DNA from: Persephonella sp.
GTDB lineage: Bacteria; Aquificota; Aquificia; Aquificales; Hydrogenothermaceae
DNA length: 64,000 bases
Direction: 5' to 3'
NCBI RefSeq assembly: GCF_027023985.1
Contig: NZ_JALVTW010000029.1
Coordinates: forward strand, 1 to 64,000
Positions within the stretch are counted from its first letter, which is position 1, and every line of letters begins with the position of its first letter. Made by a program: the position numbers and the translations under genes. This document shows positions 13,312 to 14,270 of the stretch, piece by piece. Under the pieces are notes generated by a model. It saw only the letters and a list, made by a program, of their open reading frames with translations. It had not been told where the DNA came from and did not search any database.

Positions 13312-13325
<14 letters not shown>

Positions 13326-13986
13326 AGTAATGCACAATCTTTGCTTTGGAAGGTCTATACATAATATCAAGTAAAAACCAACCGGTGATAAAACCTCCTA
13401 TATGAGCATACCATGCCACACCTCCCACATTTGGAGGAACTATCATTGCAAATAAAACCTGAATAAAAAACCAGTATCCTATAAAAAACCAGGCAGGTAA
13501 AACAAAGACAAAAAATATAAAAGGAGGAATTACAGTTAAAACTTTAGCTTCAGGATAAAGTTTTATATATGCAGCGAGAACTCCACTTATAGCACCGGAA
13601 GCACCTATCATTGGAATAAAATAACTACCAGCAGACAAGCTAACTATAGATTGAGTTAAAGCTGCACCAACACCAGATAAAAGATAAAAAACAATAAATT
13701 TAAATTTTCCGAGGGCGTCTTCAACATTATTACCGAAAATCCATAAAAAGAGCATATTCCCAAATAGATGTGCAAAACTTCCATGTAAAAACATAGAGGT
13801 AAAAATCTTATCAAATCTAAAATGAATTAGGTCAATTGGAAGTAATCCATATTGATGAATAAATAACTCAAACTTTTGAGGTGGTAAAGTAGCTTCATAA
13901 AGATAAATTCCTGTATTAAGGATAATAAGTAAAAGTGTAATTATTGGGAAAGTTCGGGTTGGAATATTATCTTTTATAGGAATCAT
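13312..13986 (-). CDS. Rhomboid family intramembrane serine protease
   Basis: A six-transmembrane rhomboid. The catalytic serine is in IGASGAISGVLAAY and the catalytic histidine in YAHIGGFITGW; the LFGNMLFLWIFGNNVED segment is the L1/TM2 hallmark. I choose the ATG at 13986 because GAGGAAAG lies just upstream; the upstream ATG at 14022 adds a basic peptide without a ribosome site. Substrates are unknown. The start lies just downstream of the candidate small RNA terminator, and a TGGTATCAT extended -10 (14019-14011) could be its own promoter. Confidence 0.88.
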
Positions 13987-14026
13987 AGCTTTCCTCGTTT
14001 TTTTAAAAAAATGATACCACATAAAA

Positions 14027-14084
14027 TAAAAAAGGAGGCTCCATTGCAGAGCCTCAGAATTTTGGGGGAGGGAGGGGGGAGGTG
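14027..14084 (-). ncRNA. Candidate ~57-nt CU-rich small RNA with anti-Shine-Dalgarno 5' end
   Basis: Between a near-consensus promoter and a strong terminator lies a short transcribed unit with no reading frame. Its predicted 5' end reads (U)CACCUCC, the same as the conserved 3' tail of 16S rRNA, and continues as C6-U-C3-U-C5. An A4-UU linker follows, then a 7-bp GAGGCUC/GAGCCUC hairpin with U6. CU-rich small RNAs that bind ribosome sites are known in other bacteria. Whether this one is expressed is untested. It could instead be a terminated leader of the rhomboid gene. Confidence 0.55.
14028..14055 (-). terminator. Intrinsic terminator of the candidate small RNA
   Basis: On the minus strand, arms GAGGCTC (14055-14049) and GAGCCTC (14041-14035) form 7 base pairs around a 7-base loop and are followed by C and six T. 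The stem is strong and perfectly placed before the T-run. It lies upstream of the rhomboid start, so it would stop transcription before that gene. Confidence 0.75.
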
Positions 14085-14090
14085 ATTATT

Positions 14091-14119
14091 AATATAAATC
14101 TTACATATTAATTTGTCAA
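14091..14119 (-). promoter_or_regulatory. Sigma-70 promoter of the candidate small RNA
   Basis: On the minus strand TTGACA (14119-14114), exactly 17 bases and TATATT (14096-14091) make a nearly ideal promoter. The start would fall at about 14085-14083, directly at the CACCTCC motif. No protein start follows before the terminator. Confidence 0.65.
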
Positions 14120-14270
14120 CTATTTTATTAAATTTTAAATTTTTATAGCACTATTGCTTTTTTTAGAGTAAGTAAAAACATACTTACGTTTATGCAAAGA
14201 CTAATTGGAAGATTAACTAAGATATAAAGAAGAATTTAAGCTGAAAAAAGAGATTTAAAAGAAGGAATAA
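14120..14270. other. AT-rich intergenic stretch with one small hairpin
   Basis: Between the oxidase-operon terminator and the small-RNA promoter I see no reading frame with a ribosome site. The only structure is an inverted repeat GTAAGTA/TACTTAC (14168-14174 and 14181-14187) with a 6-base loop. It lacks a following T-run on either strand and may be an operator half-site pair or chance. Confidence 0.4.

Follow-up and report, generated by a model that had tools for sequence, protein, structure and literature searches.

Organization of the locus

The window analysed here is a stretch of 64,000 nucleotides from Persephonella sp. On its minus strand, upstream of a rhomboid-family protease gene, lies a compact element consisting of a promoter, a C-rich tract and a terminator. 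The features are as follows.

14123..14132, minus strand: A/T-rich TTTAATAAAA, adjoining the -35 box on its upstream side; candidate UP element or operator
14114..14119, minus strand: -35 box TTGACA, kept in relatives
14091..14096, minus strand: -10 box TATATT after a 17-nt spacer, kept in relatives
14028..14083, minus strand: predicted small RNA of type A (see below), about 55-56 nt, start within ±3 nt, based on promoter geometry, terminator and covariance match
14064..14082, minus strand: pure C/T tract CCTCCCCCCTCCCTCCCCC (in the RNA, C/U tract CCUCCCCCCUCCCUCCCCC), 19 nt; predicted unpaired pairing region
14035..14055, minus strand: terminator stem of 8 pairs, with loop GCAAT in the window (14047-14043), supported by covariation
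14028..14033, minus strand: terminator U tract, T6; the T run is invariant in the type A alignment
14011..14019, minus strand: TGGTATCAT, candidate extended -10 promoter of the rhomboid gene, 3' of the small-RNA terminator
13312..13986, minus strand: rhomboid-family protease gene (open reading frame; family name from sequence), likely start ATG at 13986

The -35 and -10 boxes, with their 17-nt spacer, match the consensus at 11 of 12 positions, and TTGACA-N17-TATATT is the joint best among the promoter-like sites in 10 kb. The sequence CACCTCC starts 7 nt past TATATT, and the order from there is ACCTCCCCCCTCCCTCCCCCAAAATTCT, the 8-pair hairpin (14055-14035) and TTTTTT (14033-14028). The tract begins at about +1 and thus occupies the 5' end of the predicted RNA, which folds into the terminator hairpin alone and leaves the tract single-stranded (-13.2 kcal/mol, z -2.7 to -3.1). 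The window has a single pure pyrimidine run of 19 nt that includes 16 or more C, and 60 first-order Markov copies of the window have none. There is no general excess of promoter-like sites in the window (32 found, 34.7 expected); the decisive evidence is therefore the combination of features, together with their conservation. A strong terminator, AAAAAAGGGGCTTCTAAAGCCCCTTTTTT at 14298-14270 (minus strand), ends the upstream cbb3 oxidase operon, so that the element appears to be isolated from read-through. We regard it as very probable that the locus is a genuine small-RNA gene.

Conservation in the Hydrogenothermaceae

A nucleotide search of 61 genomes was used to screen relatives for this arrangement. 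Promoter, tract and terminator recur together in most genus assemblies and also in five other genera of the Hydrogenothermaceae (six genera in total). The tract is nearly letter-perfect across the six genera (CCUCCCCCCUCCCUCCCCCAAA), and the positions of the U residues inside CCUCCCCCCUCCCUCCCCC are maintained between genera. Exact matches to the tract in a public genome set (n=5) are from Persephonella sp., 'Hydrogenothermaceae bacterium' and 'Aquificota bacterium'. The terminator stem is represented by 19 distinct sequences, in which 100% of the cells are paired and none is broken. Changes on both sides are seen in 6 of its 8 pairs, with a covariation of 0.604 versus 0.278 after shuffling, and 26 cells are doubly changed versus 7.6 in the shuffles. 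The loop reads GCAAN in every aligned sequence.

Conservation also extends upstream of the -35 box, where TTTAATAAAA is kept in nearly all genus promoters of this type, as well as in several from elsewhere; beyond it the upstream sequence diverges. Another TTAATA follows 20 nt downstream of TTTAATAAAA in these promoters.

The sequence-only reading of this DNA had proposed a small-RNA gene with its own promoter, a C tract and its own terminator. That layout is borne out by the minus-strand coordinates, the conservation and the covariation of the terminator, and both promoter and terminator persist in close and distant relatives. Absence of the promoter and the C tract from close relatives had been named in advance as grounds for rejecting the reading; both are present there, and it was not refuted. 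The same reading described the 5' end of the RNA as a copy of the anti-Shine-Dalgarno (anti-SD) tail of 16S rRNA, which is overstated. The bases that precede the tract vary among relatives (ACACC, GCACC, UACC, AACC, UCCC), with the C/U tract alone invariant, and because these bases change we do not accept a copying of the 16S tail. The 16S-like AUCACCUCC does not itself show conservation, and the tract is longer and C-rich; its likeness to the 16S tail is mostly coincidental.

A family of C-rich RNAs in the Aquificota

To place this RNA within the phylum, a covariance model (R1) was built from the type A relatives and scanned within Aquificota genomes. It matches the window copy with an E-value of 4.6e-18. 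Such a search had been proposed along with the original reading, and it recovers related C-rich RNAs in 93 of 136 genomes of the phylum and in 33 of the 41 genomes of the family, most of the good matches having E-values from 1e-18 to 1e-5. The matches sort into four groups. Type A is the form found in the window. Type B (GCAUCCCCCUCCCUCCCC(C)UCCAUUUCCUGCGGGU...) is sited between gatC and topA in seven genera, where it is convergent with topA and does not lead into any gene; types A and B have the tract core CCCCCUCCCUCCCC in common. The genome to which the window belongs also has a type B copy, L002, located where contig C15 ends. Type C (CUCCCUCCCCCUCCCUCCCC) is found in the Aquificaceae (family name inferred), is mostly single-copy and has a terminator ending in UUUCU. 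Type D (CAUCCCCCUCCCUCCUCCCCAU) belongs to the Desulfurobacteriaceae (family name likewise inferred). In one type D locus, L082, gatC lies upstream, which suggests that types B and D may occupy the same locus.

A search of the window against Rfam 15 gave no match at gathering scores. The homologous loci gave only weak matches at chance level, with whalefall-1 and SprD failing the gathering scores and lying on the opposite strand. The family is thus absent from Rfam and would add to its coverage.

A third C-rich stretch followed by a terminator with a GCAAU loop was noted at L099 (G000:C33:25509-25556, plus strand) and at L100 (genome G015). It lies directly 3' of an ssb-like gene (C-terminus DDDVPF or DEDVPF) and is possibly a C-rich RNA derived from a 3' UTR.

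Relationship to n68/Aae-65 of Aquifex aeolicus

In A. aeolicus VF5, the model matches at 989758-989814 (plus strand; E 5.8e-7). This match falls within n68, an ncRNA candidate placed at 989704-989840 (plus strand) with 476/756 cDNA reads in Table 3 of Lechner et al. 2014 (PMC4227106), where it is equated with Aae-65 of an earlier cloning study (ref. 85 in PMC4227106) and listed as also seen by dRNA-seq. The positions of SRP RNA and tmRNA in the A. aeolicus genome agree with the same table, so the published n68 coordinates correspond to those used here. At this locus (L075), TTGACA-N17-TATAAT predicts a start about 7 nt past the -10 box, at 989704, which is the published 5' boundary of n68.

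The plan of n68 is that of the window RNA, with a C/U tract, a short linker and a terminator hairpin, and the intermediates in Aquificaceae are alike. The gene neighbourhood is not conserved between the two (an annotated permease, aq_1392, versus rhomboid and cbb3 genes). Sequence comparison thus supports homology of the window RNA to n68/Aae-65, while orthology of the two loci is not supported. The two RNAs also differ in length: n68 is the longer, and has on its 5' side a G-rich segment that, according to the predicted fold, pairs with its own tract. In that fold this extension, GGAGGCAGGAAGGGAG (L075:1963-1978), masks a large part of the tract, so that a model in which the tract is free may not hold in A. 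aeolicus; the extension could possibly be a built-in sponge or switch.

The original reading knew of no such RNA described for this group. This needs correction, since the A. aeolicus homologue had already been cloned and sequenced as n68/Aae-65 and left uncharacterized. Table 3 and the main text of PMC4227106 give no function, family or phylum-wide conservation for n68, and neither 'C-rich' nor 'Hfq' occurs in the main text. A description as a C-rich family was not found in the literature searched; the transcript itself is already known.

Putative regulation of the paralogues

The promoters of the paralogues differ, that of type A being near consensus. The type B promoter has no -35 box and carries a rigid ATGAT-N4-ATCAT whose centre lies 29 bp before the -10 box in 10 of the 11 loci with an exact box. 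This places the box (TGAT-N4-ATCA) at about -41.5, where CRP/FNR-type activators bind in class II promoters, and the sequence fits a site for an activator of that type. The exact box is present in 22 of 272 loci, at least 18 of which (some overlapping) carry a type B copy. When six genomes were scanned for the box together with the promoter in search of a regulon, the type B locus was the sole match; in the window's own genome this match falls at the end of contig C10. CRP/FNR-type boxes within the window are not above chance. A Fur box was at first considered for the type B operator and then dropped, given the half-site spacing of N4, the centre near -41.5 and the lack of a -35 box.

The type B copy of the window's own genome, which lies at the end of contig C15, has a box with ATCCTT (TGAT-N4-ATCC). 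We do not take this as a broken operator. The end of contig C10 (L277) holds the same type B promoter, with differences and with the box intact, so that C15 and C10 are probably neighbours and the end of C15 probably contains errors.

In type D, a Fur-box-like TGATAACTATTATTA lies over the -10 box and is duplicated in L083. It matches 12 of 14 positions of the Fur 7-1-7 consensus. FnrS is the Fnr-activated class of small RNA, and RyhB and FsrA are Fur-repressed. The type B promoter shares the class II activator geometry of the FnrS type, and type D shares with the RyhB/FsrA type a Fur-box-like site over the -10 box; the type A gene of the window has neither kind of regulatory site.

Proposed mechanism

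We favour, with some confidence, a trans-acting small RNA whose single-stranded C tract would block G-rich Shine-Dalgarno (SD) sites. In this model, a stand-alone gene of about 55 nt, with its own sigma-70-type promoter and terminator, would be strongly transcribed, and the 5' C/U tract of the product would pair with the G-rich SD regions of selected mRNAs. Preferred targets would contain runs such as GGGGGAG or GGAGGGAGG, not the ordinary AGGAGG. Pairing would block ribosome binding and lower translation or stability, and Hfq may hold the U tail. The paralogues would use a common pairing tract in response to other signals, as suggested by the TGAT-N4-ATCA box at about -41.5 of the gatC-topA copy.

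Hfq-family genes are present in 61 of 61 genomes searched, two of them in nearly all, and the small RNA of the window has a U6 tail. A. aeolicus Hfq binds U-rich RNA (PMC5379935). The two Hfq-family (PF17209) genes in the window's genome are located at G000:C33:185579-185767 and G000:C17:42114-42296, both on the minus strand, the second about 5 kb from dprA.

Comparable RNAs are found in Firmicutes. Bacillus RoxS and FsrA act on mRNA targets through C-rich regions, and several members of this group are present under different regulators in one cell (PMC8216469), as appears to be the case here. RoxS/RsaE, FsrA and CsfG of Bacillus and Staphylococcus are likewise small stand-alone RNAs, and their C-rich regions pair with G-rich ribosome sites. 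A single-stranded C-rich region available for pairing is also present in the folds predicted for the window RNA. However, the window RNA has one long 5'-terminal tract, whereas in RoxS, FsrA and CsfG the C-rich regions lie within a folded RNA, and the phylum is different. By analogy, the window RNA would resemble the Firmicutes C-rich small RNAs in its action; by the tests made (no Rfam match, no sequence homology found), it is not a member of their group.

Predicted targets and alternative explanations

Duplex energies of the tract were scored at 147 gene starts, including 64 from the window, with a median of -9.7 kcal/mol for the tract, -10.0 for the reversed tract and -8.8 for the 16S tail. 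Since the reversed tract does equally well, pairing with ordinary SD sites reflects composition and not targeting. The earlier suggestion that the RNA could pair with the GGAGG sites used throughout the window is thus trivially true, while the targeting that it implies is unsupported. Across the genome, near-perfect complements of the tract show no enrichment (47 sites versus 42 for the reversed pattern); they include one leader-like candidate, at a short lipoprotein-like open reading frame.

A 9-nt complement (GGRGGGRGG) occurs at one to six gene starts per genome. Some of these are antisense of the type B gene; among the others, comM and dprA recur. The comM leaders of the genus (e.g. AGGGGGAGGGG, AGGGGGAGATT and GGAGGGAGGGGG) form duplexes of -16.6 to -30.3 kcal/mol with the tract in 8 of 9 scored genus genomes, a result subject to selection bias, as comM was picked from a screen for such sites, although most comM orthologues were not part of it. 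Among the window genes, 6 of 64 reach -16.6 kcal/mol or below. Outside the genus most comM leaders have lost the G-run, genome G015 being an exception. On these predicted duplexes, pairing of the tract with SD sites is plausible, and comM (yifB) is the strongest target lead in Persephonella, with dprA a lead in some species. As a general target dprA was rejected, its leader being G-rich in only 4 of about 13 genus members.

Two further leaders were noted. A 501-aa TPR-like protein with a signal peptide has the leader GGAGGGAGGGACGATG in two species (L183 in G000, L204 in G005) and is a possible further target. At L176 (G000:C33:76600-78600), a C-rich leader and a GC-rich hairpin, CCTCCCTCCCCGGGAGGCCTTTTT, lie just upstream of a gene, and similar sequence is found at L180 and L122 (three species in total).

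The lack of genome-wide enrichment of extended complements is also what would be expected if the RNA did not pair with mRNAs but served as a decoy for a C-binding protein, such as Rho or a cold-shock/S1-type protein. The Rho primary site prefers YC-rich unstructured RNA, and the tract is pure C/U, unstructured and alike among paralogues whatever the flanks. However, the exact U positions of CCUCCCCCCUCCCUCCCCC are kept across genera, beyond the needs of a compositional decoy, and 19 nt is short for the Rho ring. We therefore consider a decoy unlikely.

Slightly less likely still is a global titrator of anti-SD type, which would compete with the 16S tail and damp translation at large without specific targets. 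CCUCC does pair with GGAGG at nearly every sampled start, and the median energy given above is near that of the 16S tail. Against this, the reversed tract equals the tract in pairing strength, the flanks identical to 16S are not conserved, and such a titrator would need a very high copy number.

Given its position, the element might instead belong to the rhomboid gene as a 5' leader or attenuator, with the terminator setting read-through. The terminator lies about 42 nt upstream of the likely rhomboid start (ATG 13986, chosen from the conserved MIPIKDNIPTR and a GAGG), an arrangement shared by many species. A cis-acting leader would be expected to precede one and the same gene at every locus and to share its transcript; this is not the case here. 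No rhomboid gene was found near the type A copies L016, L018, L020 and L022, and the type B paralogue, convergent with topA, is not followed by one. In addition, an extended -10 sequence (TGN-TAnnnT) is present between the small-RNA terminator and the rhomboid start, 20-37 nt before the latter, in each of the 12 genus loci whose rhomboid start is readable. The rhomboid gene thus appears to have its own promoter after the terminator, which argues that the small RNA is a separate unit. No alternative antiterminator fold was seen in the fold predictions. As the rhomboid gene is not always adjacent and has its own extended -10, a role as leader or attenuator is very improbable.

Equally improbable is a DNA element in which the G-rich strand, GGGGGAGGGAGGGGGGAGG, forms a quadruplex beside the promoter, as at Neisseria pilE: the complement of the tract has G runs of 5, 3, 6 and 2, but the last is only 2, and a quadruplex leaves unexplained the covarying terminator with its fixed loop, the spacing between -10 box and start, and the A. 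aeolicus RNA.

Implications

Aquificota are an early-branching thermophilic phylum, in which base-pairing small RNAs are hardly known, though Hfq is universal in the genomes searched. With the mRNA-pairing small RNA as the favoured explanation, we put forward only tentatively a broader scenario, in which the ancestor of the Aquificota had a short C-rich small RNA, and its paralogues, with a common anti-SD tract and each tied to a different signal, form a phylum-wide network of translational control that reaches natural competence (comM, dprA) along with other functions. If so, the signals would be a CRP/FNR-type activator for type B and a Fur-type repressor for type D, and the window copy would be constitutive or under other control. 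The findings raise the questions of whether C-rich anti-SD small RNAs have separate origins in Firmicutes and Aquificota or go back further, and of how short C tracts stay specific at high temperature. The orphan transcript Aae-65/n68 gains a family and a testable function, and a short RNA that is found phylum-wide, with a covarying terminator and a detected homologue, may provide an entry point to small-RNA regulation in thermophiles near a deep bacterial branch.
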